Assembly: GCF_023161965.1 (NCBI RefSeq)
Contig: NZ_JALNTY010000001.1
Location: 912,501-976,500 of the forward strand
Length of the DNA: 64,000 bases
Reading direction: 5' to 3'
DNA from: Anaerosoma tenue
GTDB lineage: Bacteria; Actinomycetota; Coriobacteriia; Anaerosomatales; Anaerosomataceae
The position numbers and the translations under genes are program-made. Each line of letters starts with the position of its first letter. Positions within the stretch are counted from its first letter, which is position 1. Positions 2,210-62,199 of this stretch are shown one piece after another. The notes under the pieces were generated by a model that ran no database searches, had not been told where the DNA came from, and saw only the letters and a program-made list of their open reading frames with translations.

Positions 2210-2219
2210 CGCGGGCTGA

Positions 2220-2828: not shown

Positions 2829-3307
2829 CACGGCCCGGCTTTCGAGCGCGGCGTGCGGGCGAAGGCGAGCGTGCCCGCCGTGACCACCGCCGTGAACTGC
2901 GCCAGCGGGCCCGCCACGAAGAGCAGCACGAGCCAGGCGATCTTGGAGGGCTGTGAAGCCCACAGGAGGAGCGGTACCCCGAGCTCGGCCGCATCGACCG
3001 CAGGGTCGAGGAAGACCGGGATCGCGCCCGCCCACACGAACACCAGGACGACGAGGGTCACCACCGCGAGCGCGGCGGCGTGCGCGAGAAGCGAGCGGAT
3101 ACGCGCGCGTTCCACGGCGGGGCCCCCGGTCTCGGGAAGGCTCTCGGGCAGCACGTGCGGTCCCCGCCTCACGAGCCACCAGCCCACGCCGAAACCGTAG
3201 AGGACGGCCAGGATCGGCAGGCTGAGACCGATGCCGATCGCGAAGACGTCGATCAGGGCGATCACGATGTACGGGAAGTTCTGACGCCAGAACGGTGCGC
3301 CTGCCAT
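2828..3307 (-). CDS. Hypothetical integral membrane protein coupled to CheB-like gene
   Basis: A 159-residue protein with three or four hydrophobic segments: an N-terminal pair around FPYIVIALIDVFAIGIGLSL and LAVLYGFGVGWWLV, a middle one around AAALAVVTLVVLVFVWAGAI, and a C-terminal one around IAWLVLLFVAGPLAQFTAVV. I do not recognise the family. The ATG at 3307 sits behind a GAGGTG ribosome site. Its stop overlaps the start of the CheB-domain gene by one base, which suggests equal production and perhaps a physical partnership in which this protein is the membrane anchor or the methylesterase target. That role is inference from gene order only. Confidence 0.65.
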   Translation of the reverse strand: MAGAPFWRQNFPYIVIALIDVFAIGIGLSLPILAVLYGFGVGWWLVRRGPHVLPESLPETGGPAVERARIRSLLAHAAALAVVTLVVLVFVWAGAIPVFLDPAVDAAELGVPLLLWASQPSKIAWLVLLFVAGPLAQFTAVVTAGTLAFARTPRSKAGP

Positions 3308-3393
3308 GGGACACCTCACATCGCAGAGGGCGGTCGTCTAGGTTGTAGAGGCCGATCGTCTAGAACGGTAGCAGACCCGGTGACCCCGCGTCG

Positions 3394-4872: not shown

Positions 4873-4991
4873 TCCCACACCCCCTTCATCGCGCCCATCG
4901 TACCGCTCGGCTATGACACGGTCCTGCACTCCAGACACCCGGATGCGTTGCCGATACACTTGGCGAACAGTCGTATACGCAGAGCGGGCCG

Positions 4992-6236
4992 GTGACCGTG
5001 GAGACTGCACAACATCAGATGGGGATGCGCCGCTTCACCATACAGTTGGTGGTAGCGGCTATCGTCTTCACCGCTCTCACGTTCACCGCCATCTACGCCC
5101 GATCACGCGCGCTCCTCTACGAGTCGCTCCGCGACCAGGCGGCGAACCACTTCGATCTTATCGTGACCGCTCGCGCATGGAACGCGCATCAGAACGGCGT
5201 GTGGGTGGTGATGCGCGATGGCGTGGAACCCAACCCCTACCTCGACGACCTCGGCGTGGACGCGGTGATCGAGACGACAGACGGGCGACAGCTCACGCTG
5301 CGGAATCCCGCCATCATGGCCGATGAGATATCGCAGCTTCTCAAGACGCGGCGGGGTATCACCTACCACCTGGTGGCGCTCGAACCGGTGAACCCCTACA
5401 ACACGCCGGATGAGTGGGAGCGGGATGTCCTGCTCGGCTTCGACGACAGTGACGAGCCGCAGTGGACCATCGACCACCAGGAGCAGATGTTCCGCTACAT
5501 GCGTCCGCTCAAGGTGGAGGGCGCGTGCGTGCCGTGCCACCAGGCGCAGAGCTACGAGATCGGCCAGGTGGCGGGAGCCACCACCGTGGAGATTCCGATG
5601 GCGTCGCTCAACGACCGCCTTCGCGGCAACGTGGTGACGCTCGTGATCCTCGGAACGCTCTCGGCGATGGCGGCGACCGGCTCGATCCTGCTGATGACGC
5701 GCAGACTGAACGCGCAGGTGAGCGATGCGCGCAACCGGCTCGTGGACGTGGCGCGCACCGACGAGCTCACTGGCCTGCTCAACCGCCGCGGAACGCTCGC
5801 CCGGCTGGAGACCGAGGTTGCCCGCTCGGCACGCACGGGCACGCCGCTCGCCCTGGCGATGCTCGACCTCGACCACTTCAAGAACGTGAACGACACGTTC
5901 GGCCACAGCGTTGGCGACGAGATGCTCCGCCACTTCGCGCGGCTGGTGGATGACGAGAGCCGTTCGTACGACATCGTCGGCAGGCTGGGCGGCGAGGAGT
6001 TCCTGCTCATCGCGCCCGAGACCGACCTGGAGGAAGCGGCGATCGTGGCCGAGCGCATCCGCACACGAGTGGCCGCTGAGCCGCTCCGCATGAACGGCGA
6101 GCCCATACCCATGACCGTGAGCATCGGCGTGACCGAGCTGACAGACGGTGAGGATATCGACGCGCTGTTGTTGCGGGCCGATGCGGCGATGTACGCCGCG
6201 AAGGACGCCGGGCGCGACCAGGTGGTGGCCGGCTGA
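4992..6236 (+). CDS. Membrane diguanylate cyclase with c-haem sensor domain
   Basis: A 414-residue signalling protein. Order: transmembrane helix near residues 14-34, an extracytoplasmic Tll0287-like (DUF3365-type) domain carrying one haem c motif CVPCH, a second transmembrane helix, then a GGDEF domain starting at RTDELTGLLNRRG. The catalytic motif reads GGEEF and is preceded by RSYD at the spacing of the inhibitory I-site, so it should make cyclic di-GMP from two GTP and be product-inhibited. The covalent haem suggests redox or gas sensing. The first GTG at 4992 is used, but ribosome-site evidence is weak and an ATG at 5019 or 5025 is possible. It is divergent from the DUF2779 gene. Confidence 0.88.
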   Translation: MTVETAQHQMGMRRFTIQLVVAAIVFTALTFTAIYARSRALLYESLRDQAANHFDLIVTARAWNAHQNGVWVVMRDGVEPNPYLDDLGVDAVIETTDGRQLTLRNPAIMADEISQLLKTRRGITYHLVALEPVNPYNTPDEWERDVLLGFDDSDEPQWTIDHQEQMFRYMRPLKVEGACVPCHQAQSYEIGQVAGATTVEIPMASLNDRLRGNVVTLVILGTLSAMAATGSILLMTRRLNAQVSDARNRLVDVARTDELTGLLNRRGTLARLETEVARSARTGTPLALAMLDLDHFKNVNDTFGHSVGDEMLRHFARLVDDESRSYDIVGRLGGEEFLLIAPETDLEEAAIVAERIRTRVAAEPLRMNGEPIPMTVSIGVTELTDGEDIDALLLRADAAMYAAKDAGRDQVVAG

Positions 6237-6732
6237 CGGCGACGGCACGGGCGCATGCGGAAAGCGCTCCGGGGTGCTGCGCGGGGAATCGGCCGAACGG
6301 CCTGAGAATAGAGGTGTCCCGAGAAACCGCTCCTACGAAGATCCGGTACTCACTAGCTTCCCGTTTCTTACCATTGGGCGCTGAGAACATCCGGCCAGCT
6401 TGCGCGTGCCTTCCGATCCAACTCCCGCCGGCAGCTACTGGTACGCTACCTTTCGCGGTTCTCCCGGCTCGACCTCTCGGGACAACCACGACTCTACGGC
6501 ATGCAACGGAGCTGCGCAAGGGCAAAATCGCAAAATGTCGAGGATGCTGACGAACGGTATCTACTCGCCGTTCTCCGGCTATCTTGGAACGACAAGCGGT
6601 TTCCACCGAGGACGGGCGGGCGACTGCACACGCCACGGGGCGTTTTCGGGGTCTGAACGGCCGCTTCACGCATCGGGAGCCCGCAGGCTACACTCTTCAC
6701 AGCGTTGGACGACTCTCGCCGAGGAGGCCGCC
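6237..6732. other. Non-coding stretch of 496 bases with distant 10-base inverted repeats
   Basis: I see no convincing gene. TGTCCCGAGA at 6315-6324 is matched by its exact inverse complement at 6475-6484, so the 150 bases between could form a closed stem-loop structure or be a small transposon-derived element. Base composition is a little less GC-rich than its neighbours. No riboswitch consensus that I know is matched. The promoter of the lipoprotein gene at 6733 should lie in the last 100 bases, but I could not pick boxes with confidence. Confidence 0.35.
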
Positions 6733-7527
6733 ATGAAGCGGATCGCAGTGTTGGTGCTTTCGCTCGTGCTCGTGTTCCTGGTAGCGGGATGCAGTGGCGG
6801 CGCGGAGCCCGCGGACACGGGCGCAGCCGACGACGACGGCGCTCCGGCGTCGTCGGGCGACATCGACATGCTTGCCACGGTCGACGACCTGAGCGCGGCG
6901 CTCGAGCGCGACCACGCGGACGCCGAGTGGTACGGCGACATCACCGACATCACCGTCGACACGATGCTCGGCACCCAGGTACTCGTGGTGCATGTGGCGT
7001 GGGGCGGCACGGACCCCGACTATGAGACCACCAACCGCAAGGCGCAGGGCATCTCGGATGCGCTCTTTGCCTACAGGCAGACTATCGCGCCCAATTACGC
7101 GCTGATGCATGCCGACGGGAAGACGCTCTACATGGGCTCGTCGAGCGACCTCGACGCCACGCCGATGGACTCGGTCTTCACACTCCCGGCGGCGCCACAG
7201 ACGGCCGAAGAGGTCTCGGCATGGTTGGATACGGTCTACGGGTCCGGTGGCATCGTGACGCTCGGCCCCGATGAGACCTGGTACGGCACGATCGAGTCGA
7301 TCACCGTCTCACAGAAGGATTGGGGCTCCGGGCCGACAACGGTGCTCGAGGTGACCACGTCGCCAGCATCGCCCACCGACGTGAGCCTGCTTGGCGTCGC
7401 CCTGCAGACCACCGGCTCGCCGCTGCTGGCGAACTACAGCATCGTCGTGCCGGACGGCTCCGGCCCCGGCGGATCGGCCACGACCAACGGCCCGGGGACG
7501 GCCGGCTGGTTCTACCTGGCCGAGTAG
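6733..7527 (+). CDS. Secreted lipoprotein with internal duplication
   Basis: A 264-residue lipoprotein: MKRIAVL start, hydrophobic core, then lipobox LVAGC, so it should be lipidated and exposed outside the membrane. After an Ala/Asp-rich linker the mature part has two related halves. Each has an acidic helix, then EWYGDITDITVD or TWYGTIESITVS, then a strand pair ending VLVVHVAW or VLEVTT. The family is unknown to me. The ATG at 6733 has GAGGAGGCCGCC directly upstream. The duplication suggests two similar ligand-binding lobes or a pseudo-dimer. No enzymatic motif is visible. Confidence 0.8.
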   Translation: MKRIAVLVLSLVLVFLVAGCSGGAEPADTGAADDDGAPASSGDIDMLATVDDLSAALERDHADAEWYGDITDITVDTMLGTQVLVVHVAWGGTDPDYETTNRKAQGISDALFAYRQTIAPNYALMHADGKTLYMGSSSDLDATPMDSVFTLPAAPQTAEEVSAWLDTVYGSGGIVTLGPDETWYGTIESITVSQKDWGSGPTTVLEVTTSPASPTDVSLLGVALQTTGSPLLANYSIVVPDGSGPGGSATTNGPGTAGWFYLAE

Positions 7528-7539
7528 CAGCCGCTGCTG

Positions 7540-7562
7540 ACCGGGCGCGTCCGGCGCCCGGT
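7540..7562. terminator. Bidirectional hairpin between convergent genes
   Basis: ACCGGGCGC and GCGCCCGGT form a perfect 9-base stem with a 5-base loop, between the stops at 7527 and 7576. There is no T-tract, but position and strength fit a shared terminator. Confidence 0.5.
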
Positions 7563-7575
7563 CGCGCGACCGCCG

Positions 7576-8160
7576 CTACTTCTTGAACATCTTGCCCACG
7601 AAGCCCATCACGTCGTCCACGGCCGAGCCGTCCTTGTCGGCATCGAAGGCGGTGTTGAGTATGCCGAGAAGGTCGGGCGCGTCCTCGGCATCCTGTTGTT
7701 TGGCCGAGCCGAGCATGGAAGCCAGTCCGCTCGCGTCGAGCCCCTTCTCACGCTGCGTCTTGCCGAGCATGCCCATCACGAGCGGCGCGGCGATGGTGAG
7801 GATCTGGCCGATCTGATCGCCGGACAGACCGGTCTTCTGCGAGAGGCCCTTCTCCACCACCGGGCGCTTCTGCCCGAGCGCGTGCTTGAGGATGCCGGGC
7901 CCCTCGCCCGCCTGCGGATCCTGCAGCAGCCCGCCAAGGTCGCCGAGCACGGAGCCGTCGTGGTCTTTCTGGAGCGCGCGGAGCAGGTCGTTGGCGCCGG
8001 ACGGCTCCGACGCGTTGTTGGCGAGCGCGGAGACGAGCAACGGCATCGCTGCGGAAAGCGCGGACGACGCCTTGCTCTCATCGACGCCCACGGTCTTGCC
8101 GATCTCGGAGAGAGCGCCCGAGGAGAGCTGCTCCATGAGGTCACGGGTGAGTACGTCCAT
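7576..8160 (-). CDS. DUF937 domain protein (YidB-like)
   Basis: About 194 residues, mainly helical, matching DUF937: MDVLTRDLMEQLSSGALSEI at the start, repeated SALSAAMPLLVSALANNA and ILTIAAPLVMGMLGK helices, ending GFVGKMFKK. Function of the family is not established. The ATG at 8160 has GAAAGGACGCAT before it; the frame is open 11 codons further but without a ribosome site. It lies downstream of, and in the same direction as, the GlsB-type gene, 72 bases away, so both may belong to one stress-response unit. It converges on the lipoprotein gene. Confidence 0.8.
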   Translation of the reverse strand: MDVLTRDLMEQLSSGALSEIGKTVGVDESKASSALSAAMPLLVSALANNASEPSGANDLLRALQKDHDGSVLGDLGGLLQDPQAGEGPGILKHALGQKRPVVEKGLSQKTGLSGDQIGQILTIAAPLVMGMLGKTQREKGLDASGLASMLGSAKQQDAEDAPDLLGILNTAFDADKDGSAVDDVMGFVGKMFKK

Positions 8161-45309: not shown

Positions 45310-45642
45310 TCAGCTGCCGACCTGGGCAAGGCGCTCACCGATCAGCGCGCGGGCGGCCTGCATGCACTCGTAGCCTGTGGAACAGGAGCCGTACGCGGCC
45401 TTCACCGCCTCGGCCAGTTCGCTGTCTCCCAGGGGTCCGGCGAGCCACTCCACCAGCCCGTCCGGGTCCAGGCACGCGTCGTCGGCGCCGAGGAACCCGT
45501 GCACCTGCGCCAGGCTGAAGAGCCTGCCGCCCACGCGGCTCCGTCCGTTGATGCGGAAGGCCGCCACGTAGTCACCCGGCCTGACCGGACGCATCACGCG
45601 CTCGGCCACCTCCGGAGTAGGAGTGTTGAGGGTACCCATCAT
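45310..45642 (-). CDS. AOR-linked small protein, copy 1
   Basis: A 110-residue soluble protein of no family I know. It starts MMGTLNTPTPEVAERVMRPV, has FLGADDACLDPDGLVEWLAG then PLGDSELAEAVKAAY, and ends with a helix. It is homologous to the protein at 56359-56739, which has the same position behind the second AOR gene: PEAAERLV and ALADWVSGNLGDPGLAAAI align. The start overlaps the AOR stop (ATGA), so it is made together with it. A maturation, chaperone or cofactor-delivery role for the tungsten enzyme is my inference. Confidence 0.75.
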   Translation of the reverse strand: MMGTLNTPTPEVAERVMRPVRPGDYVAAFRINGRSRVGGRLFSLAQVHGFLGADDACLDPDGLVEWLAGPLGDSELAEAVKAAYGSCSTGYECMQAARALIGERLAQVGS

Positions 45643-47714
45643 TCACCACCCAGCTTTCCGGCCGCTTCCAGCGTGTCGGCCACGTGGCCGAGGTCCACGC
45701 CTTCGAGCGTCTCGCGTGTAGGCCATCCTGTTGATACGTCCCAGCCCTCGAGCTCGTAGAACATCGTCTTGACGTCCTCCATGCGTTCGCGATCGATGAC
45801 CCTGCCGGTCACGAGACGGTAGTCCCACGTCCCGTCCTCGAAGGTCGGCATCCAGTACGGCCCGTACAGGTGTCCGCCGTACGGGACCTCGTAGAGGTAC
45901 TCCGAGTACTTGACCATGTCGCGGTGACGGCCCTGGATCGTCCAGATGGCGTTGTCCAGGTTCCAGATACGCCGCCCAAGCTCCATGCCGTCGGTGAAGC
46001 TCATGCCGTCGCCGGTCACGGCGTTCCAGAAGAGCGGTTCGCCCTCAGGGGTGAAGCCGCCGCGATCCTCGGTCTTGGGGCTGTAGAAGTCCGCGAACCG
46101 GTAGTCGCAGTAGAGCGCCGATTCCTTCCAGAAGCGCGTGTAGTGACGGTGCCACGCGGTGAGCTTGACCTGACCCTCGGAGTACATGCCGTCCTCGGAG
46201 AAGTCGAGCATCATCGGGTCGGGGTCGAACGGAAGCATCCGCTCCGCGAACTTGGTCACGAACTCCTCGGCTTCCATCCAGCTGGGGATGCCGTACCACT
46301 TGGCGATCGACGGCTTCCAGAACAGGTTGTTGAAGTCGTGCTCGTTGATGTCGCGGTCGCCGAGGATGCTGCCCCAGCCCCAGTACGCCTCAGCGCGAGG
46401 GTCGTAGCCGTGCTCGGGCAGACCCCAGTACGAGTAGTGGAGCACGCCGCTGGCGGTGTCCTCCTCCAGGCGTCCCCAGTGCTCGGCGGCGCGCCACATG
46501 CCCTCGGCCAGGATGTCGCCCGCCCCTTCGCGGTCGGCCACCATCCTCTGGTAGGTCTCGATGAACTCGCGGCTGCCGTACGTGTCCCACGGCAGGTCGA
46601 TATCCACCTGCTTGCCTACGCCGGCGATGCCCTCCTGGTAGAGGTGGTAGAGCCAGTTGAGACCGTGGTCGATCTCGTAGACGTTGATGCCCAGGCGCTG
46701 CACCATCTCCGCCGAGTACCGAACGGTCGGCGTGGTCTGACCCTGGTTGTACATCATGTCCGCGAAGAAGTAGAAGTACGTCTCCTCGCAGCTCGACTCG
46801 TTGCCGAGGCCGTCGCTGAAGCGCGCGCGGCACGAGGAGATGCAGCTCTGGCAGGCCTGTGGGCGCGACCCCACATCGGTGGGCATCGGGTACATGACCG
46901 CCGGCGACGGATTGCCCGAGAAGCGCGCCCAGCCAAAGCCGTCCTTGGGCTCGTCCACATTCACGCCAAGATCCTCACGCGCCGAGAAGCGCGCGTTAAG
47001 CAGCGCCGCCGCGTCGGCCACGTCGATGTCCTTGGAGCCGATCACGCTGATGGCCTTCAGGTTCTTGGCGCCCCACACACCGCCGAAACCGCCCTGCGCG
47101 GCCGCGTTGCCAGCGTCGTGGATGAGAGCGCCCACGCGCGACTTCTTCTCGCCCGAGGGGCCGATCGTGATCACGGCCGACTGCAGCGCGGCGCGCTCGC
47201 CCGACTTCGTGCCGATCTCACGCCAGCCGTCCGAGTTGGCCACCTGGAGGTTCCAGATGCGCTCCTGCGTGTCGTAGGTGTCGAGACCCCAGAGGCCGTC
47301 GGTCTCCGCGTCGCGCAGGACCACGCGGTCGTTCTCGATCTCGATCCACGTCGGCTTGGAGGCCGCACCTTCGAGCACGATGCCGTCCCAGCCGGCGAAC
47401 TTCATCATCGTGGCGAACCGGCCGCCCATGTTCGAGCGGGTGAACCATTCCGGCGTGGACTGCACGCCGATGCCCTGGATCTCGAGCCGCGAAGCCGACG
47501 GCGCCAGCGTGCCCGCAAGCGGCGAACTCATGATCGTGATCACATTGGCCGGGTCGAAGCCCGAGATCGTCTTGTCCGCGCAGAGGTCCCAGAAGATGGC
47601 CGAGCCCATACCGTGGCCGCCACCCCACTCCCGGTACTGCTCGGTCTCGATCTCCGAGACCGTGCCCGCGGTGAGATCCACCCGCAGGATCTTCCCAGCG
47701 TATCCATTACCCAT
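45639..47714 (-). CDS. Aldehyde:ferredoxin oxidoreductase family protein, catalytic subunit, copy 1
   Basis: A 691-residue tungsten/molybdopterin enzyme of the AOR family, longer than the usual 600-620. The [4Fe-4S] cysteines are C288, C291 and C295 in QACQSCISSCRARF and a fourth near C536 in SALYCDYRF. The N-terminal domain (YAGKILRVDLTAGTVSEIET, then WGGGHGMGSAIFWDL) matches the pterin-binding fold. AOR enzymes oxidise aldehydes or reduce acids with low-potential carriers; the true substrate here is unknown. No signal peptide. Third gene of a cytochrome b-ferredoxin-AOR-accessory-cytochrome c operon. Confidence 0.9.
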   Translation of the reverse strand: MGNGYAGKILRVDLTAGTVSEIETEQYREWGGGHGMGSAIFWDLCADKTISGFDPANVITIMSSPLAGTLAPSASRLEIQGIGVQSTPEWFTRSNMGGRFATMMKFAGWDGIVLEGAASKPTWIEIENDRVVLRDAETDGLWGLDTYDTQERIWNLQVANSDGWREIGTKSGERAALQSAVITIGPSGEKKSRVGALIHDAGNAAAQGGFGGVWGAKNLKAISVIGSKDIDVADAAALLNARFSAREDLGVNVDEPKDGFGWARFSGNPSPAVMYPMPTDVGSRPQACQSCISSCRARFSDGLGNESSCEETYFYFFADMMYNQGQTTPTVRYSAEMVQRLGINVYEIDHGLNWLYHLYQEGIAGVGKQVDIDLPWDTYGSREFIETYQRMVADREGAGDILAEGMWRAAEHWGRLEEDTASGVLHYSYWGLPEHGYDPRAEAYWGWGSILGDRDINEHDFNNLFWKPSIAKWYGIPSWMEAEEFVTKFAERMLPFDPDPMMLDFSEDGMYSEGQVKLTAWHRHYTRFWKESALYCDYRFADFYSPKTEDRGGFTPEGEPLFWNAVTGDGMSFTDGMELGRRIWNLDNAIWTIQGRHRDMVKYSEYLYEVPYGGHLYGPYWMPTFEDGTWDYRLVTGRVIDRERMEDVKTMFYELEGWDVSTGWPTRETLEGVDLGHVADTLEAAGKLGGE

Positions 47715-47753: not shown

Positions 47754-48458
47754 CTAGCCCTCGATGTCGGCCACGTAGCCGAACGAGGCCCAGTTCTCCG
47801 TGCGGAGGTTCGGCGAGTAGCCGTCCTCTGTCTGCTCAGGAAGGTCAGTGGTGAACTTGATGGCCCGCATCGGGCACACGCTCTCGCACGCGCGGCGACC
47901 ATCGATGCCGCCCTCGTCGTCCATGTACGGCGTGTCGAGGCACAGGTCGCACTTCTGAGAAGCGTGACCCTCCTCGCTCCACTGCACTGCGGAGACCGCG
48001 CGCGGGCATGCCGCCACGCAGCGCAGGCATCCGATGCACCGCAACTGATCCACGGTACGCACGCCCGTCTCGGGGTCCACGTGCATCGCGCCGGTGGGAC
48101 ACGCCTGAACGCACTCGTCGCACTGCCAGCACTGCACCGGATCGATGTCGTAGGGGAACGCCTTGAACGGGTTCTGTGTGATCTGGATACGGGAAAGCGA
48201 GTGGTTCGCCGCGCCATGGTGTGCGATCGCGCAGGCGGCCATGCACGTGGAGCAGCCGGAGCACTTCTTCTGGTCCACGAGCAGGAACCCGCCCGAGACC
48301 GGATAGGCGATCACCTCATCGGGAAGCAGGAACACCTGGGCGACCGCGCCACCGATGACGCCGAGCGCGCCAAGGGCGCCGATACCGCCCATGAACTGCC
48401 GGCGCGATAGACCTCTGGCGCCGTCTTCAGCCGGATTGACGTCTTTGATGTCCGACAT
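47754..48458 (-). CDS. Tat-signal ferredoxin subunit with four [4Fe-4S] clusters, copy 1
   Basis: A 234-residue electron-transfer protein of the DmsB/PhsB type. The N-terminus has a twin-arginine signal, LSRRQFMGGIGALGALGVIG. Sixteen cysteines follow in four groups: CSGCSTCMAAC, CWQCDECVQAC, CIGCLRCVAAC, and CDLC with CESVC. It would link the AOR subunit to cytochrome b. The Tat signal means the subunit is folded before export; because AOR has no signal, it may travel with this subunit. ATG 48458 has GGAGG upstream, two bases after the cytochrome b stop. Confidence 0.9.
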   Translation of the reverse strand: MSDIKDVNPAEDGARGLSRRQFMGGIGALGALGVIGGAVAQVFLLPDEVIAYPVSGGFLLVDQKKCSGCSTCMAACAIAHHGAANHSLSRIQITQNPFKAFPYDIDPVQCWQCDECVQACPTGAMHVDPETGVRTVDQLRCIGCLRCVAACPRAVSAVQWSEEGHASQKCDLCLDTPYMDDEGGIDGRRACESVCPMRAIKFTTDLPEQTEDGYSPNLRTENWASFGYVADIEG

Positions 48459-48460
48459 GG

Positions 48461-49321
48461 CTACGCCTCCTTTCCGGTGGTCGTGCTCTCGGAGGCGCTC
48501 AGGCGCTGATACCAGCCGGCGTGCTCCTTCTCCGCGTACTCGCGGGGGACGTAGCCGGTGAACATCGAGCGCAGGACAGGCCATGACATCGGCAGCACGC
48601 TCGAGAAGAACACGTGCGCCACGAAGAACAGCAGCATCGCGATCGTGGAGACGCCGTGGACGGGGGTCGCCGCCGACACGAGCCAGGCGGGGAGATCCAT
48701 CAGGTGGGCGAGCACCTTCACGATCCCGCTCAGGATCACACCCACGCTGGCGAGGATGGCCAGGATGTACGCCATCTTCTCGCTCTCGAAGTACTTGTCC
48801 TCGGGCGGCATGGTGAACTTCTTGATGCCGAGGAGCTTGCCGTAGTGCTGCACCGTGAACGAGAACGCGTTGCCGGTGGGCAGGTGCTCCTTGAAGCGAT
48901 AGGCCGAGACGATCGTGTTGGCCGCGTAGTAGAACGTGCCGAACAGGAACACCACCACGCCCACGAAGTGCAGGTTCATCATGAGCCACACGCCGTCGGT
49001 GTCGCGCACGAGCCGGGGCACGAACAGGAAGCCGAGCCCCACGCCGGTGGCGAGCAGCAGGGCCGTGCCGAGGCCGTGGGCCCAGTGCTCCAGGCGAGCC
49101 GCTCCGTCGTGGCGGAGCACCCTGTCGCCCTCGATGCGCGGATCCTGCCTGCGAGTGAGCCCCGCGGCAAGCACGCCAAGGAACGGTGCGAGGAAGACCA
49201 GCCACCAGGCTGAATCGAACAACAGGCCACCGCCCTCGCTGCGGGTAGCCTGCACGGCCCACAGACTGCCGAGCCCGAGGGCCAGCGTCAGGCCGAGCAC
49301 GGGTAGGACGCCCTTCTTCAT
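48461..49321 (-). CDS. Cytochrome b subunit (FdnI/formate dehydrogenase gamma-like), copy 1
   Basis: A 286-residue membrane protein with about six helices, resembling dihaem cytochrome b subunits of formate dehydrogenase. Helices include WWLVFLAPFLGVLAAGL, LGTALLLATGVGLGFLFVP, LMMNLHFVGVVVFLFGTFYY and STIAMLLFFVAHVFFSSVLP. Candidate haem-ligating histidines are in EHWAHGLG, NLHFVG, PVHGVS and VAHVFF. It would exchange electrons with quinones. The first gene of AOR operon 1; ATG 49321 follows GAAGGAGAGAGT. Divergent from the Fic-like regulator, 202 bases away. Confidence 0.88.
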   Translation of the reverse strand: MKKGVLPVLGLTLALGLGSLWAVQATRSEGGGLLFDSAWWLVFLAPFLGVLAAGLTRRQDPRIEGDRVLRHDGAARLEHWAHGLGTALLLATGVGLGFLFVPRLVRDTDGVWLMMNLHFVGVVVFLFGTFYYAANTIVSAYRFKEHLPTGNAFSFTVQHYGKLLGIKKFTMPPEDKYFESEKMAYILAILASVGVILSGIVKVLAHLMDLPAWLVSAATPVHGVSTIAMLLFFVAHVFFSSVLPMSWPVLRSMFTGYVPREYAEKEHAGWYQRLSASESTTTGKEA

Positions 49322-49388: not shown

Positions 49389-49413
49389 ATTCGATAACTG
49401 ATAGTTTTAGAAT
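49389..49413. promoter_or_regulatory. Imperfect dyad between cytochrome b and Fic-like regulator
   Basis: ATTCGATAACT, GAT, AGTTTTAGAAT: the two arms match at 9 of 11 positions around a 3-base centre. The surrounding sequence is AT-rich for this genome, 68 bases above the cytochrome b start. A candidate operator or promoter core for AOR operon 1. Confidence 0.45.
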
Positions 49414-49470
49414 CGCCCTGGTAACGTACGCTATTTCAGTTCGATTCAAGTCAGGATTCGGTCAGTTTTC

Positions 49471-49503
49471 GAGGCTTTCTATCAGTCATTGATAGAAAGC
49501 CTC
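49471..49503. promoter_or_regulatory. Perfect 14-base inverted repeat before the Fic-like regulator gene
   Basis: GAGGCTTTCTATCA, five bases GTCAT, TGATAGAAAGCCTC, ending 20 bases before the ATG at 49524. It could be a DNA operator for the winged-helix protein or an mRNA hairpin that limits its translation; the ribosome site GGAAGGG lies just after it. Confidence 0.7.
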
Positions 49504-49523
49504 GCGCGGAAGGGAAGCCGCAT

Positions 49524-50828
49524 ATGAGTCCCATGCACGACCGAACGCTGCTCGATGGACTGCTCGGCCAGATCGGCGGCACCCGCCTTGAGGACACGCT
49601 GCATCGAGCCAACAGCCCGTACCTCTTCCGCACCGAGTTCCAGCGGATGCCTCTGCCGAAGGGAGTGGACCAGGACGCCGCCTGGCGTCTGCTCGACTGG
49701 GCGCGACGAGTCTGCCGACGGACGATCGTGACGGTGCCGGGCAGGGACGAGGTGTGGTACTTCCCCACCGACGAGATCACCCGGTGCCTGCATCGCATCG
49801 ACATGCTCGCGGGCTGGCCGATGCAGTCTGCGCTTCGCGGCCTGGGCGCGGAGCAGACGCGGTTCTCGGGCTCGGCCGCGATGAAAGAAGCCGTTGCGGC
49901 ATGCATCGACCGGGACCACGCTCACCTGGCCCCCGACCTGGTGGCAGACCTGAAGCGCGGCGCGCAGCCGGAGACGGTGCTCGGGCAGCAGATCGCCAAC
50001 TACTACGACGCGGTATCGCGCATCGAGGAGTTCGCACGGTCGCCGTTCGACGTGGCCTTGCTGAAGCGGCTACAGGTGGACCTGTCCCGGGGACTCATCC
50101 TCACCGAGGACGAAGCGCTGCGGCTGCGAGAGACGCCCAACGCCGACGAGGGCCCCATCGACGAGTGGGCCAAGTCGGGCCCCACGGCCCCGGAGAGGAT
50201 CGAAGCGGAGATGCAGCGCATCGAGGCGCTCTCCGCTGACTCGGGCGGCTTCCTGCACCCGATGATCAGGGCCATGGTGATCTACTTCTGGCTCGAGGAC
50301 ATGCGTCCGTTCGCGCACCGCCAACCGGGGATGGCGCGGCTTGCGTTCCTCGTGTTCCTGCGCCAGCAGGGCTACGTGAACCTCGAGCTGGTGCCGCTCG
50401 CGCAGATCACCCTCGAGCGCGGCGGCGAGCTGCCGCGCGCCTGGCGCGCCGCCATCGTGAACGAACGCGACCTCACCGGGTTCCTCACGTTCAACCTCCA
50501 GGCGCTCGTCGGCGCCCTTGAGGACATGCAGCAACGGATCGAGATGGCGTCGCGTCGCTACGACGCCGTCCGGCAGGCGCTGCGCGCGAAGGAGGACCTC
50601 AACCACCGGCAGGTGTCCATTCTCGGGCGCGCGCTACGCGTCCCCGGCGCGACGTTCACGATCGCCTACCACAAGCGGGCCTACGACATCGCCTATGCCA
50701 CCGCACGCGGCGACCTGCTCGATCTCGTGGACAAGGGCTACCTCGAGTACGAGCGCGTGAGCCACGAGTATGTGTTCACGCCTGCGCCGGGGCTCGGCAA
50801 ACGCCTGAAGTCCGGCGCCGGCGGGTGA
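49524..50828 (+). CDS. Fic-fold/winged-helix regulator with dead active site, copy 1
   Basis: A 434-residue protein. A Fic-like core is recognisable at about 245-275: GGFLHPMIRAMVIYFWLEDM followed by RPFAHRQPGMARL, where active Fic enzymes have HPFxDGNGRxxRL. His is replaced by Arg and the GNGR loop is lost, so AMP transfer is not expected. The C-terminus (about 359-418) is a winged helix: LNHRQVSILGRALR, then AYATARGDLLDLVDKGYLEY, as in Fic-wHTH proteins. It is divergent from AOR operon 1, with a perfect hairpin before its start. I infer a transcriptional regulator of that operon using the dead Fic fold as a sensor. Confidence 0.75.
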   Translation: MSPMHDRTLLDGLLGQIGGTRLEDTLHRANSPYLFRTEFQRMPLPKGVDQDAAWRLLDWARRVCRRTIVTVPGRDEVWYFPTDEITRCLHRIDMLAGWPMQSALRGLGAEQTRFSGSAAMKEAVAACIDRDHAHLAPDLVADLKRGAQPETVLGQQIANYYDAVSRIEEFARSPFDVALLKRLQVDLSRGLILTEDEALRLRETPNADEGPIDEWAKSGPTAPERIEAEMQRIEALSADSGGFLHPMIRAMVIYFWLEDMRPFAHRQPGMARLAFLVFLRQQGYVNLELVPLAQITLERGGELPRAWRAAIVNERDLTGFLTFNLQALVGALEDMQQRIEMASRRYDAVRQALRAKEDLNHRQVSILGRALRVPGATFTIAYHKRAYDIAYATARGDLLDLVDKGYLEYERVSHEYVFTPAPGLGKRLKSGAGG

Positions 50829-56358: not shown

Positions 56359-56739
56359 CTACTCGAGCTCCGCTCCCGCCGCATCGGCTGTGCCGTCCGC
56401 CTCCGCAAGCACCACCGTGGCCTCCTCGAACCTGGCAGCCATCGCCACACGCGCGGGACCGGCCACTTTGAAGGCCGGTACACCCTCGCACGCTTCGTGG
56501 ATAGCCGCCGCAAGGCCTGGGTCGCCAAGGTTGCCGGAGACCCAGTCGGCCAGCGCGTCAACGGAGAACACGGGCTCGAGCACCTGCGATACCTTGAGGA
56601 ACTCCTCGGCCGAACAGACCGGCACCTGCTCGAATCCGCCGTGCTTGCCGATCACACTCACGGTGAGCCGCTTGTCGTACGGCTGCCGTGCAACGAGCCG
56701 CTCGGCGGCCTCGGGCGTCATCGCAGCCAGTTCCGCCAT
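56359..56739 (-). CDS. AOR-linked small protein, copy 2
   Basis: A 126-residue protein homologous to the one at 45310-45642. It starts AELAAMTPEAAERLVARQPY, has a strand pair (RLTVSVIGKHGGFEQVPVC), then VLEPVFSVDALADWVSGNLG followed by DPGLAAAIHEACEG, and ends in an Ala/Glu-rich tail not found in copy 1. The gene begins two bases after the AOR stop. The conserved position in both operons is the main clue to a role with the tungsten enzyme. No metal-binding or catalytic motif is evident. Confidence 0.72.
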   Translation of the reverse strand: MAELAAMTPEAAERLVARQPYDKRLTVSVIGKHGGFEQVPVCSAEEFLKVSQVLEPVFSVDALADWVSGNLGDPGLAAAIHEACEGVPAFKVAGPARVAMAARFEEATVVLAEADGTADAAGAELE

Positions 56740-56741
56740 CG

Positions 56742-58817
56742 CTAGCCTCCCAGCTTCCCGGCCGACTCGAGCGTGTCGGCGACCTCCGGGAGTCCGACCT
56801 CTTCGAGAGTCTCCCGCGTGGGCCAGCCTGAGGCCAGATCCCAGCCTTCGAGCGTGTAGAAGCGGTCCTTCCACTGCTCGAAGCCGTCGATGTCGAGCGC
56901 GCGGCCGAGCGCGTTGATGTACGTCCACTCCCCGTCCACCTTGCCGGCGAGCGGGTAGAACGGGCCTACGAGGCTCGTCTCGAGCGGGACCTGGTACATG
57001 TACGGCGCAAGCTTCACGATGTCGCGGTGGCGACCCTGCAAGGCCCAGATGGCGTTGTCGAGGTTCCATATCCTGCGGCCGAGTTCGATACCCTCGGCAT
57101 AGGTCATGTCGTCACCGGTCACCGCGTTCCAGAAGAGCGGCTCACCATCGCCGGTCATACCCACATCGTCGGCGGCGGCGAAGTTGGCCAGGTCGGGCCA
57201 GCGGAAGTCGCAGTACAGCGCGCTCTGCTTCCAGAAGCGTGTGTAGTGCCGCTGCCACGAGACCAGCTTGGCCATCGACTCCGAGTAGATGTTGCCGGTG
57301 CTGAAGTCCACCATGTCCATGTCGCCCTCGTAGGGGACCATCTTGGCGGTGACGATCTCGGCATATCGCTCGGCGGAGATCGGCACGTCGAGCCCGGCGC
57401 CCATGTGGTTGATCACGGCCCAGAAGTGCGCGTTCAGACCATGCTCGTTCATATCGCGCTCGCCCATGATCGAGCCGTAGCCCCACTCCACCTCCGTGCG
57501 CGGATCATACCCATGGTTGGCGTAGCCCCAGTACGGGAAGTCGAGGATGCCCGTCTGCCAGTCTTCTTCCAGCCGGCCCCACTTCTCAGCTGCGCGCACG
57601 AACCCTTCGGCTATGTCCTCGCCGATGTCCTCGCGCATCGCGACCTTGGTGATGAAGTCCACCGCGAATGAGGTCTCGCCGATGGTAGAGAAGTCGAGTT
57701 TCGTGTCGATCTCGAGACCGGGGCCGAGGATTCCCATCTGGTTGAGCGCGTACAGGTAGCTGAGACCCCGGGCGAGTTCGTAGGAGTTGATGCCATACCG
57801 CTGCACGAGATCGGTGGCGATCACCGACGCGTCGGTGTGCGCGCCGTGCTTGAGCGCATCGAACGTGGTGTACACGCCGGTCTCCTGGCACGACGACTCG
57901 TTGGCCAGCCCGTCGCTCCAGCGCGGACGGCACCCGGCGATGCAGCCCTGGCACGCTTGCGGGCCCATCGTCACCTCGGTCTTGCGCTTGAAGAACAGCG
58001 TGGGTGACGGAGCCCTGCCGAGCGACGGTCCGTTTGGCGGGGCCGGCTGGCCCGTCTCGGCACCGAACTCGTCCTTGGCAAGCATGCGGGCGTTGAACAG
58101 GGCGATCGGATCGGCGATCTCCACCGAACCGGTCCCCACCACGCTGATCGCCTTGAGATTCTTCGAGCCGAAGACCGCGCCGAAACCGCCCTGGCCAGCG
58201 CCGTTGCCAGCGTCGTGGATGAGGCAACCGAGGCTTGAGAGGTTCTCGCCAGCGGGACCGATCGTGACGACCGCCGACTTCTGCGTGGTGCGGCCCGCAT
58301 CGCGCGCGGCACCCACGTTGTCCCAGCCGTGGGCCTCGTCGTCCTTCTGCCCCCAGATGAGCTTCTGCGTCTCCTGAGTGTCCTTGCCCCACAGGTCAGC
58401 CGCATCGCGGAACTCCACGGAGTCGTTCACGATGTCGATCCACACGGGAGCCTCGGACTTGCCGGTGATCACGATGCCGTCCCAGCCCGCGTACTTGAGC
58501 TGCCCGCCGAACCGCCCGCCGAAGTTGGAGCGGGTGAACCAGCGGATGGGATACCCCGCCGCGCCGATGCCCTGGACCTCCACACGTCCCGAAGCCGACG
58601 GGACCATCGTCCCGGAGAGTGGCGACGTCATCATGGTGACCACGTTCTTCGGGTCGTCCCACGCGACGTTCTTGTCTTCCACGAGATCCCAGAAGATCGC
58701 GGACCCCATGCCGTGACCGCCGCCCCACTGCTTGTACTGCCCGGTGTCGATCACCGAGTGCTCTCGAGCGGTGAGATCCAGCATGAGGATCTTGCCGCTG
58801 TAACCGTCCTTCGCCAT
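56742..58817 (-). CDS. Aldehyde:ferredoxin oxidoreductase family protein, catalytic subunit, copy 2
   Basis: A 691-residue AOR-family subunit clearly paralogous to 45639-47714 and the same length. Cluster cysteines are C289, C292 and C296 in QACQGCIAGCRPRW plus the later SALYCDFRW. The pterin-binding N-terminus reads YSGKILMLDLTAREHSVIDT, then WGGGHGMGSAIFWDL. Much of the C-terminal half is conserved with copy 1 (LFWNAVTGD, RRIWNLDNAIW, QGRHRD), while loops near 120-180 and 240-280 differ, which may change substrate. No signal peptide. The gene is 53 bases downstream of its ferredoxin gene. Confidence 0.9.
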   Translation of the reverse strand: MAKDGYSGKILMLDLTAREHSVIDTGQYKQWGGGHGMGSAIFWDLVEDKNVAWDDPKNVVTMMTSPLSGTMVPSASGRVEVQGIGAAGYPIRWFTRSNFGGRFGGQLKYAGWDGIVITGKSEAPVWIDIVNDSVEFRDAADLWGKDTQETQKLIWGQKDDEAHGWDNVGAARDAGRTTQKSAVVTIGPAGENLSSLGCLIHDAGNGAGQGGFGAVFGSKNLKAISVVGTGSVEIADPIALFNARMLAKDEFGAETGQPAPPNGPSLGRAPSPTLFFKRKTEVTMGPQACQGCIAGCRPRWSDGLANESSCQETGVYTTFDALKHGAHTDASVIATDLVQRYGINSYELARGLSYLYALNQMGILGPGLEIDTKLDFSTIGETSFAVDFITKVAMREDIGEDIAEGFVRAAEKWGRLEEDWQTGILDFPYWGYANHGYDPRTEVEWGYGSIMGERDMNEHGLNAHFWAVINHMGAGLDVPISAERYAEIVTAKMVPYEGDMDMVDFSTGNIYSESMAKLVSWQRHYTRFWKQSALYCDFRWPDLANFAAADDVGMTGDGEPLFWNAVTGDDMTYAEGIELGRRIWNLDNAIWALQGRHRDIVKLAPYMYQVPLETSLVGPFYPLAGKVDGEWTYINALGRALDIDGFEQWKDRFYTLEGWDLASGWPTRETLEEVGLPEVADTLESAGKLGG

Positions 58818-58870: not shown

Positions 58871-59614
58871 CTAGTGCGAGGCCGTGGCGGCCGCGGGGTT
58901 CTCCGTGCCGGCGTCGTCGATCGGGTAGCCGATCTTCGCCCACCCGGCGTCGCGCAGATTCACCACGTAGCCCTCGTCCGACTGCAGCGGAATCTCCTTC
59001 GTGAAGCTGATGGCGCCCGTGGGGCATACCTGCTCGCACGCACGCTTGCCGTCGGGTCCGCCCTGCTCGTCCCAGTAGGGGGTGTCCTTGCACAGGTCGC
59101 ACTTCTGCGCGTGCTTGTCCTCGGTGTTCCAGATCACTCGGCTCGTATCCATCGGGCATGCGTTCACGCACTCCTGGCAGCCGATGCACTTGGCCACGTC
59201 CACCGTGCGCACGCCTGTCTCGGTATCCACGTGCATCGCCCCGGTGGGGCACGCCTCCACGCACGCCGGGTAGGGGCACTGGCGGCACTGGATGATCGCC
59301 TTGTCGTTGGGGAACGACTCGAACGGGTCCTGCACCACCTGGATGCGGCTGAGCGACAGGCTCTGCACGCCGTGATGCGTGAGCGAGCACGCCATCATGC
59401 AGGTGCTGCAACCCTGGCACTTCATGGGATCCACCAGCAGGTAGCCGTCCGAGGCCGGTATGGCGATCACCTCGTCGGGCAGGAGGAAGCCCTTCACCAC
59501 GAGGCCGCCGAGGACCAGGCCGAAGCCCGCCCCGCCGACGCCGGTGATGAACTCGCGGCGTGAGACGCCCGTGCTCTCGGCGGCAACGCCGGTCGTCGTG
59601 TCCTTGTCCACCAT
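58871..59614 (-). CDS. Tat-signal ferredoxin subunit with four [4Fe-4S] clusters, copy 2
   Basis: A 247-residue paralogue of 47754-48458. Twin-arginine signal VSRREFITGVGGAGFGLVLG, then the same FLLPDEVIAIPASDGYLLVD junction and four cysteine groups: CQGCSTCMMAC, CRQCPYPACVEAC (two extra residues here), CIGCQECVNAC, and CDLC with CEQVC. Role: electron wire between AOR copy 2 and cytochrome b copy 2, probably outside the cytoplasm. Its ATG shares one base with the cytochrome b stop (TGATG), so the two are coupled. Confidence 0.9.
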   Translation of the reverse strand: MVDKDTTTGVAAESTGVSRREFITGVGGAGFGLVLGGLVVKGFLLPDEVIAIPASDGYLLVDPMKCQGCSTCMMACSLTHHGVQSLSLSRIQVVQDPFESFPNDKAIIQCRQCPYPACVEACPTGAMHVDTETGVRTVDVAKCIGCQECVNACPMDTSRVIWNTEDKHAQKCDLCKDTPYWDEQGGPDGKRACEQVCPTGAISFTKEIPLQSDEGYVVNLRDAGWAKIGYPIDDAGTENPAAATASH

Positions 59615-60537
59615 CAGTCGTTTCCTTTCGCTCTCGTCGGCCCTGGGTGCGCCGGTGTGTCGTGAGATGCCTGGTGCCCTCCCGCTGCGACCACCGCGAC
59701 GGATGGCTCGTCGCCGAGGGAGGCCAGCCAGCCGGCGTGTTCGTGGCGTGCGTACTCCAACGGCACGTAGCCGGTGAACATCGAGCGCAGCACCGGCCAG
59801 CTCATCGGGAGGATCGCGGCGAAGAACACGTGCGCGAGGAAGAACGCCAGCATCGCGATCGTGGCGATGTCGTGCGCCGGCGTTGCGACGGCCATGAGCC
59901 AGCCCGGTACATCGACCGCGTGAGCCGCGACCTTGAGGAACCCGGTGACGATGATGACCGCCGTGGATACGAGCGCGAGGAGGTACGCCATCTTCTCGCT
60001 CTCGAAGTACTTGCGCTCGGGTGGGAACGCGAGCTTCTTGAACCCGAGCAGCAGGCCATAGTGGCGGCGCGTGAAATCGACCGCGTCGCGCGTGGGCAGG
60101 TGCTCGCGGAAACGATGCGTCGCGAGCAGCGTGTTGGCCCCGTAGTAGAAGGTGCCGAACAGGAACACCAGCACCGCGACGAAGTGGATGTTCATCGCCG
60201 CCCGCACCGGCGCCCCGCTTCCAAGCAGCGTGGGTACGAACAGGAAGCCCAGAGCGATGCCGCTTGCCAGCAGCGCCGCCGTCCCCACGCCATGGGTCCA
60301 GTGCTCGACGATCGCCGCGCCATCGTGCCTGAGCACGCGGTCGCCTTCGATCACCGGGTCCCTGCGTCTCGTGAGCCCGGCGGCCAGCACACCCGCGAAC
60401 GGTGCCAGCCACACGAGCCATGTCGCCGAGTCGAACAGGAGTCCTGCCCCCTCGGCCGATGCCGAACGCACCGCGTAGGCGATGCCGACGATGAACGCCA
60501 GCACTGCGAGTGCTCCGGCGATGGCACGTCGTGCCAT
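59614..60537 (-). CDS. Cytochrome b subunit (FdnI-like), copy 2
   Basis: A 307-residue paralogue of 48461-49321 with the same six-helix plan: N-terminal helix ALAVLAFIVGIAYAVRSASA, WLVWLAPFAGVLAAGL, AALLASGIALGFLFVPTL, NIHFVAVLVFLFGTFYYGAN and ATIAMLAFFLAHVFFAAILP. Histidines in EHWTHGVG, NIHFVA, PAHDIA and LAHVFF are kept, supporting haem b binding. It carries a longer C-terminal tail than copy 1. ATG 60537 follows GGAAGGGG by 7 bases. First gene of AOR operon 2 and divergent from the second Fic-like regulator. Confidence 0.88.
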   Translation of the reverse strand: MARRAIAGALAVLAFIVGIAYAVRSASAEGAGLLFDSATWLVWLAPFAGVLAAGLTRRRDPVIEGDRVLRHDGAAIVEHWTHGVGTAALLASGIALGFLFVPTLLGSGAPVRAAMNIHFVAVLVFLFGTFYYGANTLLATHRFREHLPTRDAVDFTRRHYGLLLGFKKLAFPPERKYFESEKMAYLLALVSTAVIIVTGFLKVAAHAVDVPGWLMAVATPAHDIATIAMLAFFLAHVFFAAILPMSWPVLRSMFTGYVPLEYARHEHAGWLASLGDEPSVAVVAAGGHQASHDTPAHPGPTRAKGND

Positions 60538-60921
60538 ACGCACACCCCTTCCCTTGTTCCATTGACGGACTGGCCGGATCCGTGAAGCCACCCCAGCAAA
60601 GCAGGGTCTGAACTACTAGTCAAGGTCATACTAGTATTTAAAAGGCCCCCCACCCCGATTCCGGGCCTGGAAACGGCAATCTGCAGCTACCGTTGTCTTC
60701 ACCAAGGTGTACAGATTCTAGGTTCAAACAGCAGAATCCAACCTTCAAACCCAGCGCTCGCTTCCATGGCAGGAACCTTTTCCCCTAGAATGTCGATTAT
60801 GGTAGTTGGCGAGTACACCAGCGCACCTCATGCCGCAGAGCGCGCGTCGAGGAATAGCCAGCGTGATACGCTGCGACCATCGTCTCAGGGGACACTGATC
60901 GAGAAGGGGCTCCAGCGCTCG
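60538..60921. promoter_or_regulatory. Divergent control region of AOR operon 2 and Fic-like gene 2
   Basis: A 384-base stretch with no gene I trust. It is AT-rich relative to the genome. TACTAGT (60614-60620) and ACTAGTA (60630-60636) form an inverted repeat with a 9-base spacer, followed by TTTAAAA, a likely operator over or next to the AOR promoter. A frame open from 60766 reads into the regulator, but its first 52 codons look non-coding and alignment with copy 1 supports the ATG at 60922. Confidence 0.5.
60614..60636. promoter_or_regulatory. TACTAGT/ACTAGTA inverted repeat
   Basis: Two 7-base perfect arms, 9 bases apart, 77 bases above the cytochrome b copy 2 start. Each arm also contains the self-complementary ACTAGT. 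It fits a dimeric DNA-binding protein such as the divergent winged-helix regulator. Confidence 0.55.
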
Positions 60922-62199
60922 ATGACTGAGGACATCGACAGAGATATCGCGATGCGGGTCATCGAGGCTTTCGAGTCGGGACGCCTCGACTACCTGTTCG
61001 CGGAGACGAACATCCAGTACTTCGACCGTGCCGACTTCGAGGGCATGCGGTTTGGCACCGGACTACCACGCGACTCGATCTGGCGGCTCCTCGCCTCGGT
61101 GCGCAGGGCAACCGGTCTCGTGGTCTTCGAGAGCGCCTGGGGCGACGCTCAGGTACGTGTCTCACTCACGGCACAGCTCCTCAAGGCACTCTCTGAGATC
61201 GACACCTGGCCGCGACGCAGTCTGTTCGGCCGCAGTGGACTCCCCGCAGACGAGGAGGGGATCGTCAGGGATCGGCTGCTTGTTGAGGAGGCCACCCTGA
61301 TCGGGCTGTTCAAGACCGGCGCCGATCCCACTGCCAGCGCAGCGTTGGAGGAGGTGCGCTCATCGGTGATCGCTTCGGTCTATGACGGGATACCGCCCGC
61401 CGACGAGGCATCATCGATCGCCACACGCTTCTACGAGATCTCGCGCGAATTGCCACACCTGCTCAACGACCCGCCAACACCGGATGACATCCGCGGCATC
61501 CATGCACGACTCCGAGGCGACGCGCCTGACGCCGGCCGCTTCCGAACCGCAGCGGGCGACCCGGACGGCCTTCGTTCCGCACCCGGTGTTGCGCCCGAGC
61601 GGATCGAGCGTGAGATGGATATGCTGTGCGCGTATGCCGGCAGCACAGACGTTCCATTCATCCACCCGCTCATCAAGAGCATCGCTATCGCCTGGTGGAT
61701 CCGATACGTGCAGCCGTTCGACGAGTACAACTACCTGGTAGGCCGCCTCGTGTCTCTCGGCTGGATCGTGCATCAGGGCTACACGCTGCTGGGCATCGCT
61801 GACCCACACTACCGCTTCAAGTCGGCAACGGTCGCTTCGGGCGACCAGACCGCGAAGTTCATCCGCCATCTTGAGGTCATCAGAGACGCGGCGAGTCTCG
61901 GTGAGGAGCGCCTCGAGGAGCGTGTCGAACGCTATGCGATCGTGATGGGTCGTTTCGGTCATCTCGACATCAACCACAGGCAGGCGTTCATCCTCGACCG
62001 TGCCACGCAGCGCCCGGACACCGAGTTCACGATCAAGCATCATGCGCGCACGCGACAGCTGTCCTACGAAACGGCGCGCCAGGACCTCCTGCGCTTGGTG
62101 GAGATGGGATACCTGGAGCAGAGCAAGCGCGGCCGCGCCTTCGTGTTCACGCTCGCCCACAGCATGGTGGACCAGCTCGGCCGGGACGCACGGGGCTGA
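60922..62199 (+). CDS. Fic-fold/winged-helix regulator with dead active site, copy 2
   Basis: A 425-residue paralogue of 49524-50828. The Fic core near residues 246-276 reads DVPFIHPLIKSIAIAWWIRY, then VQPFDEYNYLVGRL: the catalytic His is Gln and the GNGR loop is NYLV, so it cannot transfer AMP in the normal way. The C-terminal winged helix has INHRQAFILDRATQ and LSYETARQDLLRLVEMGYLE. Overall identity to copy 1 is modest, but domain order and length agree. It is divergent from AOR operon 2. ATG 60922 has GAAGGGG about 12 bases upstream and aligns with the copy 1 start. Probable operon-specific regulator. Confidence 0.73.
   Translation: MTEDIDRDIAMRVIEAFESGRLDYLFAETNIQYFDRADFEGMRFGTGLPRDSIWRLLASVRRATGLVVFESAWGDAQVRVSLTAQLLKALSEIDTWPRRSLFGRSGLPADEEGIVRDRLLVEEATLIGLFKTGADPTASAALEEVRSSVIASVYDGIPPADEASSIATRFYEISRELPHLLNDPPTPDDIRGIHARLRGDAPDAGRFRTAAGDPDGLRSAPGVAPERIEREMDMLCAYAGSTDVPFIHPLIKSIAIAWWIRYVQPFDEYNYLVGRLVSLGWIVHQGYTLLGIADPHYRFKSATVASGDQTAKFIRHLEVIRDAASLGEERLEERVERYAIVMGRFGHLDINHRQAFILDRATQRPDTEFTIKHHARTRQLSYETARQDLLRLVEMGYLEQSKRGRAFVFTLAHSMVDQLGRDARG

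Follow-up and report, generated by a model that had tools for sequence, protein, structure and literature searches.

The window that we analysed, a stretch of 64,000 nucleotides from Anaerosoma tenue (contig NZ_JALNTY010000001.1, positions 912,501 to 976,500), contains two operons for tungsten-type aldehyde oxidoreductases (AOR) and two genes for proteins that combine a degenerate Fic domain with a winged helix (table 1). Regulator 1 is divergent from operon 2 and regulator 2 is divergent from operon 1. The start of the cytochrome b gene in operon 2 (60537) was placed by the upstream GGAAGGGG and by conservation. For the catalytic subunit of this operon the best NCBIfam model is PRK09849 (YdhV-type), at 5.4e-63 and under the cut-off of that model. 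A gene of 110-155 amino acids follows the AOR gene in every operon that we read, in operon 1 at 45310-45642 and likewise in L017, L054, L111, L112, L161 and L179. The copy in operon 2 is without a Pfam or NCBIfam match, and it is possible that this small gene encodes a subunit or a maturation factor. Some AOR operons are followed by genes that resemble B12-binding radical-SAM genes, as judged by inspection of their N termini only (L017 955-2241 and 6708-7988, L111 12615-14999, L112 8834-10195). The home genome as a whole (2,107,022 bases, 6 contigs) has five pseudo-Fic genes and nine AFOR_N genes, six of which are cytochrome-linked. Two of the five pseudo-Fic genes are found at contig ends, where their partners seem to run on in the next contig, and in the stretches read no pseudo-Fic gene adjoins the three AORs that lack a cytochrome b gene.

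Table 1. Genes and predicted sites of the two AOR loci, in coordinates of the window
Feature	Position	Strand	Description and basis
Pseudo-Fic/winged-helix regulator 1	60922..62199	+	425 aa, ATG start; Pfam, structure model, loop/helix alignment
Predicted operator 1, TACTAGTCAAGGTCATACTAGTA	60614..60636	.	23-bp dyad, 7-bp arms, 9-bp spacer
Cytochrome b561-type membrane subunit, AOR operon 2	59614..60537	-	Pfam Ni_hydr_CYTB 6.9e-16
FeS subunit, operon 2	58871..59614	-	Twin-arginine-like N terminus SRREFITG (by inspection); NCBIfam NrfC/HybA/DmsB-type matches
AOR catalytic subunit (tungsten-type aldehyde oxidoreductase family), operon 2	56742..58817	-	Pfam AFOR_N 4e-52, AFOR_C 1.5e-31
Small conserved gene 3' of AOR, operon 2	56359..56739	-	Similar genes follow AOR at other loci
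Pseudo-Fic/winged-helix regulator 2	49524..50828	+	Loop RPFAHRQPGMARL; PADLOC SoFic 8.8e-14; model pLDDT 84.1
Predicted operator 2, CGAGGCTTTCTATCA-N5-TGATAGAAAGCCTCG	49470..49504	.	Perfect 15-bp inverted repeat just before regulator 2 start
Second related site (half-copy), TCGATAACTGATAG	49391..49404	.	Cytochrome b side; 86% complementary to 49479-49492
Cytochrome b, AOR operon 1	48461..49321	-	60% identity to operon 2 copy
FeS subunit, operon 1	47754..48458	-	Twin-arginine-like N terminus SRRQFMGG; inspection, NCBIfam
AOR catalytic subunit, operon 1	45639..47714	-	Pfam AFOR_N 7.8e-50

Regulator 1 is a full-length Fic and winged-helix protein without the catalytic motif. The initial annotation had described it in this way from the letters of the DNA, and we find that the open reading frame is real, that the loop QPFDEYNYLVGRL is present as given and that the Fic fold is backed by both Pfam and AlphaFold2. 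The Pfam Fic family (PF02661) matches residues 186-277 with 27 bits (cut-off 24, 8.2e-6), and for the C terminus Pfam gives a weak hint of a winged helix. The AlphaFold2 model, built on an alignment of 23 sequences, has a pLDDT of 87.5 and a pTM of 0.85 and presents the complete Fic-plus-winged-helix fold. It aligns with SoFic along the whole chain (309-310 residues, Z about 21.8-21.9), and further fold matches are Coxiella CbFic2, the Fic domain of FICD and AvrB (Z 11.6-11.7). The winged helix extends approximately over residues 340-412, with helices at 371-378 and 382-394 and strands at 398-403 and 406-411 in the model. The degenerate loop lies at about residues 264-275, and in the motif region QPFDEYNYLVGR the His, the Gly and the first Arg are gone, so that the catalytic motif HxFx(D/E)GN(G/K)RxxR is broken. 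The inhibitory helix of class II Fic proteins, (S/T)xxxE(G/N), is absent from regulator 1 in the alignment; other clades have degenerate forms ending in DG, and intact kin have SSQIEG. The PADLOC SoFic model matches regulator 1 at 1.3e-10, compared with 2.4e-49 for L063, a relative with an intact motif. The kinship to Fic is independent of such intact members, because a profile built without any of them still matches Fic proteins in the PDB (8cil, 1.2e-9). The same architecture was claimed to recur beside the other AOR operon, and this is the case for regulator 2: Pfam Fic gives no match to it, and its model has the Fic and winged-helix fold with Z scores of 21.5-23.0 to Fic proteins. The two regulators share about 25-31% identity only, and are therefore old paralogues.

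The family search covered 61 genomes, the home genome and 60 relatives, and members were found in 25 of them. Among all loci fetched, 29 members are divergent from a cytochrome b gene; the AOR gene is assembled in 21 of these pairs, and in the other eight the contig stops within the cytochrome b or FeS gene. A divergent pseudo-Fic gene is missing from four complete cytochrome b operons. Three of these belong to tandem arrays (the second of the tandem pair in the home genome and two in G008), and the fourth, in G021, is found beside a SorC-type regulator. A SorC-type sugar-binding regulator in place of the pseudo-Fic gene is seen at L112 (2020-3849), where the cytochrome of the cytochrome b-FeS-AOR operon has diverged (41%). 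The frames are full-length at nearly all loci; at L179 (6566-7890) a pseudo-Fic gene adjoining a cytochrome b-FeS-AOR operon is split into two overlapping frames. The two cytochrome b copies of the tandem operons in L017 (5642-6526 and 11455-12339) score equally and have identical N termini, and contig ends fall inside the cytochrome b gene in many cases (L018, L019, L069, L072, L078, L080). Together this suggests that the cytochrome subunit alone underwent gene conversion or a recent duplication.

The family is not confined to AOR loci. A class-wide search also found it in another family of the Coriobacteriia, probably the Eggerthellaceae of the gut, mostly beside Tat-exported FAD_binding_2 reductases, and in one genome of that family a member adjoins an AOR operon on the same strand. 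The family recurs in anaerobic subsurface and, probably, in gut actinobacteria. At L071 (1831-4965), in the Anaerosomatales, the divergent partner of the pseudo-Fic gene is a formate dehydrogenase-like molybdopterin oxidoreductase, which is broken into two frames, perhaps by an in-frame TGA. One of the intact-motif relatives, L067, is found near patatin-like and metallo-beta-lactamase-like genes (1985-7897), a neighbourhood that by inspection is defence-island-like.

Active Fic motifs at most AOR loci would have made the two window genes simple pseudo-enzymes, and none of the 29 AOR-divergent members has an intact motif. The catalytic His, the loop Gly and the first motif Arg (R1) are each found in 0 of the 29, and the last Arg (R2) is kept in all of them. 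The Tyr, Thr, Ala and Asp of the winged helix are invariant in the 27 AOR-divergent members that reach this region. The members linked to FAD reductases retain the winged-helix signature and have no intact motif either, and R2 is found in 0 of 11. None of the seven relatives with an intact motif (L063-L068, L087) has an AOR alongside. Within each orthologous group an alignment shows the degenerate loop to be conserved above the rest of its domain, with 0.64-0.89 for the loop against 0.50-0.70 for the surrounding Fic domain, and 0.73-0.80 for the winged helix. In three of the four degenerate groups that were compared, conservation of the winged helix matches or exceeds that of the loop, and the intact kin have 0.95 for the loop and 0.53 for the winged helix.

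The initial annotation also argued that the non-catalytic fold is under selection. We agree, as the loop is conserved within groups and the degenerate Fic domain is under purifying selection (for L082 and L084, dN 0.01 and dS 0.15). For pairwise comparisons dN/dS is 0.02/0.21 in the closest pair and 0.40/1.44 between the window gene and L053, and overall it is about 0.1-0.3. One could suppose that these genes are decaying pseudo-enzymes or leftovers of defence systems which lie beside AOR operons by chance, given that intact relatives such as L063 match the SoFic anti-phage model strongly and that L067 is found among patatin-like and other island-type genes. We consider this highly improbable, since the nearly universal full-length frames, the dN/dS values, the same divergent position in 29 loci and the conserved dyads described below rule out ordinary decay as a general account. 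The claim that catalysis decayed independently at the two loci is not established. On the tree the intact clade sits on short branches amid several long-branched degenerate clades, and the intact and degenerate states need a minimum of two changes, of which the starred branches force one. A tree constrained to a single loss, with the intact rows kept in one group, is worse by 1.46 log units, and the AU test does not reject it (p 0.43). A single loss with later divergence is no worse an explanation than several losses, and regulators 1 and 2 may owe their different loops to drift after a common loss.

The best clue to the function of regulator 1 is the predicted operator, which the initial annotation did not note. 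Predicted operator 1 has a single exact match in the 2.1-Mb genome and lies 77 bp from the start of the cytochrome b gene and 286 bp from the start of regulator 1. We searched for dyad motifs in 11 intergenic regions of the window-gene clade, which were trimmed of coding and ribosome-binding sequence beforehand, and found a site in all 11 at a width of 23. The log-likelihood ratio is 87.2 at this width, against 33.7 +/- 1.7 for shuffles that ignore the kinship of the loci, and only 51-64 at widths 22 and 24. A second clade has its own dyad, TGTCAATCTCTCAATAGTTGATA, with 82.5 against 32.7 +/- 1.8 for shuffles. The dyad arms are 84% paired at slide 0 and 6-65% when slid, and their pair counts show no covariation beyond column make-up; at L053 the right arm is out of register by one base. 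As the shuffle null ignores relatedness and the arms do not covary, the evidence for the operator is its position, register and symmetry, not compensation. A scan of the intergenic region of regulator 1 and operon 2 for the sigma-70 consensus found no promoter, and a TTGACT falls inside the dyad on the operon strand. The 29-bp core of predicted operator 2 likewise occurs once in the genome, even if as many as 3 mismatches are allowed.

The regulators differ between clades in the residues that might read these sites. The recognition-helix pair E383/Q387 is almost wholly confined to the clade with the TACTAGT dyad, and in the other clades, whose sites differ, position 383 is mostly A or S and position 387 mostly A or R. 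The window operon can also be compared with that of G002 (L053), where the AOR is 96% identical (dS 0.48) and the cytochrome b has a dS of 0.23. The regulators of these two loci have 56% identity only (dS 1.44), and similarity drops around the operator. With near-identical operons and such dissimilar regulators, operon and regulator have different histories.

We propose that regulator 1 is an exapted pseudo-enzyme that locally controls transcription of the operon for a membrane-bound tungsten-type oxidoreductase, and that its remodelled pocket tunes DNA binding via a ligand; we would give this reading a probability of about 0.75. This goes beyond the fold, the motif loss, the linkage, the purifying selection and the conserved dyads, which were established by computation. 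An ancestor of the SoFic, CbFic2 and CccR kind, with an N-terminal helical part, a Fic domain and a C-terminal winged helix, would have lost AMP transfer and been retained as a local one-component regulator. We infer that its dimer would bind the clade-specific intergenic dyad by the winged helices and would regulate transcription of the divergent cytochrome b-FeS-AOR operon and perhaps of its own gene. A local transcription factor is the best account because CccR and CbFic2 offer precedents, the gene is divergent from its operon, dyads are present and the conservation of loop and winged helix is inverted. The sign of regulation is probably repression, considering the CccR precedent and a site 77 bp from the operon start. 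The remodelled pocket with the last motif Arg would most likely hold a small anionic ligand, which would tune DNA binding; candidates are a nucleotide, or an acid that is substrate or product of the paired enzyme. Sensing in the old pocket seems plausible because R2 is kept and because regulator distances track AOR distances. In 16 loci the Mantel correlation between the two is 0.74, and 0.71 when partial on cytochrome b. This tracking is suggestive, with r of 0.25-0.35 and p of 0.015-0.07 at one locus per cluster, and R2 might be structural instead of ligand-binding.

It is possible, though less likely, that the Fic domain is a dimerisation scaffold only and senses nothing, in which case the protein would be a constitutive or autoregulated DNA-binding repressor. 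CccR dimerises via N-terminal and Fic residues and needs dimers for binding to its palindrome (PMC9755527), the AOR-linked members have all lost R1, Gly and His, and the winged helix shows higher identity than the Fic domain. A mere scaffold fits less well with a loop whose conservation within each group exceeds that of the remaining Fic domain, or with an R2 that is kept in every AOR-linked member and in no FAD-reductase-linked one. The presence of one regulator per operon, with its own site in each clade, furthermore suggests separate signals.

As AvrB demonstrates, enzymatic activity is possible for a Fic fold that lacks the motif. The pocket of regulator 1 might by analogy carry out another chemistry as a non-canonical transferase, and both the conservation of the loop in a new form and the presence of AvrB among the fold matches would agree with this. 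We regard it as unlikely, as the new loops differ between clades, which would be unusual for a common enzymatic activity, and the winged helix equals or exceeds the loop in conservation in most degenerate groups.

If regulator 1 is the local transcription factor that we propose, a dedicated one-component regulator with a candidate operator in what is apparently a cultivated type strain offers a direct route to the inducer of each Class V enzyme. The family also makes the exaptation from Fic to regulator quantifiable, because the intact kin conserve the loop and vary the winged helix, and the dead kin nearly reverse this. In other Coriobacteriia, regulators of this kind may also control the Tat-exported FAD-dependent reductases next to which relatives are found. 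We raise only tentatively the wider idea that Coriobacteriia hold a class-wide set of transcription factors derived from Fic AMPylases that have lost their activity. Each would serve a single operon for a respiratory oxidoreductase, whether a tungsten AOR, an FAD-dependent reductase or a molybdopterin enzyme, and would read the substrate or product of its own enzyme in the former ATP pocket. Should this be true, the regulators would guide to the substrates of the Class V tungsten oxidoreductases.

With an AOR large subunit, an FeS subunit with a Tat-like signal and a membrane subunit, operon 2 has the make-up of these Class V enzymes (Clade 41, E. coli Ydh), which have been reported in Coriobacteria and whose physiological role is not known (PMC13328260). 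The operons described here differ in their order of cytochrome b-FeS-AOR, in the small extra gene and in the dedicated pseudo-Fic regulator. Fic or regulators are not mentioned in that paper (PMC13328260), and the description of Anaerosoma tenue M08DHB does not mention 'aldehyde' (PMC9686372). In open-licence PubMed Central papers we found no catalytically dead, operon-dedicated Fic family with clade-specific operators, no paper joining aldehyde ferredoxin oxidoreductase with the Fic family, and none joining Eggerthella lenta, Fic, transcriptional regulator and reductase.

Among known Fic-like proteins, the AvrB-type folds without a Fic motif have a similarly degenerate loop, but they are without a winged helix-turn-helix (wHTH) and come from the unrelated context of a plant-pathogen effector. 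The class II proteins SoFic (PDB 3eqx, 3zcn) and CbFic2 (PDB 8cil) share the whole-chain fold and the wHTH with regulator 1, and CbFic2 binds DNA through its wHTH (PMC10628234). Their catalytic motif and inhibitory helix are intact, whereas both are lost in regulator 1. The SoFic-like members of the present family are the intact kin L063-L068, and the AOR-linked members lack the intact Fic motif that characterises the SoFic anti-phage proteins. Another close parallel is CccR of Yersinia pseudotuberculosis, a Fic-HTH protein whose dimer binds a palindrome in its own promoter and represses its own gene (PMC9755527), so that neither the Fic-wHTH architecture nor its use in a regulator is new. Regulator 1 shares with it the helical N terminus, the Fic domain and the HTH at the C terminus, the last seen as a winged helix in the model, and a dyad operator at the regulated promoter is present as a predicted site at 11 loci. 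CccR, however, has an intact motif, AMPylates FtsZ, is a secreted effector and regulates itself, whereas regulator 1 has lost the motif and is paired with a respiratory-type operon.
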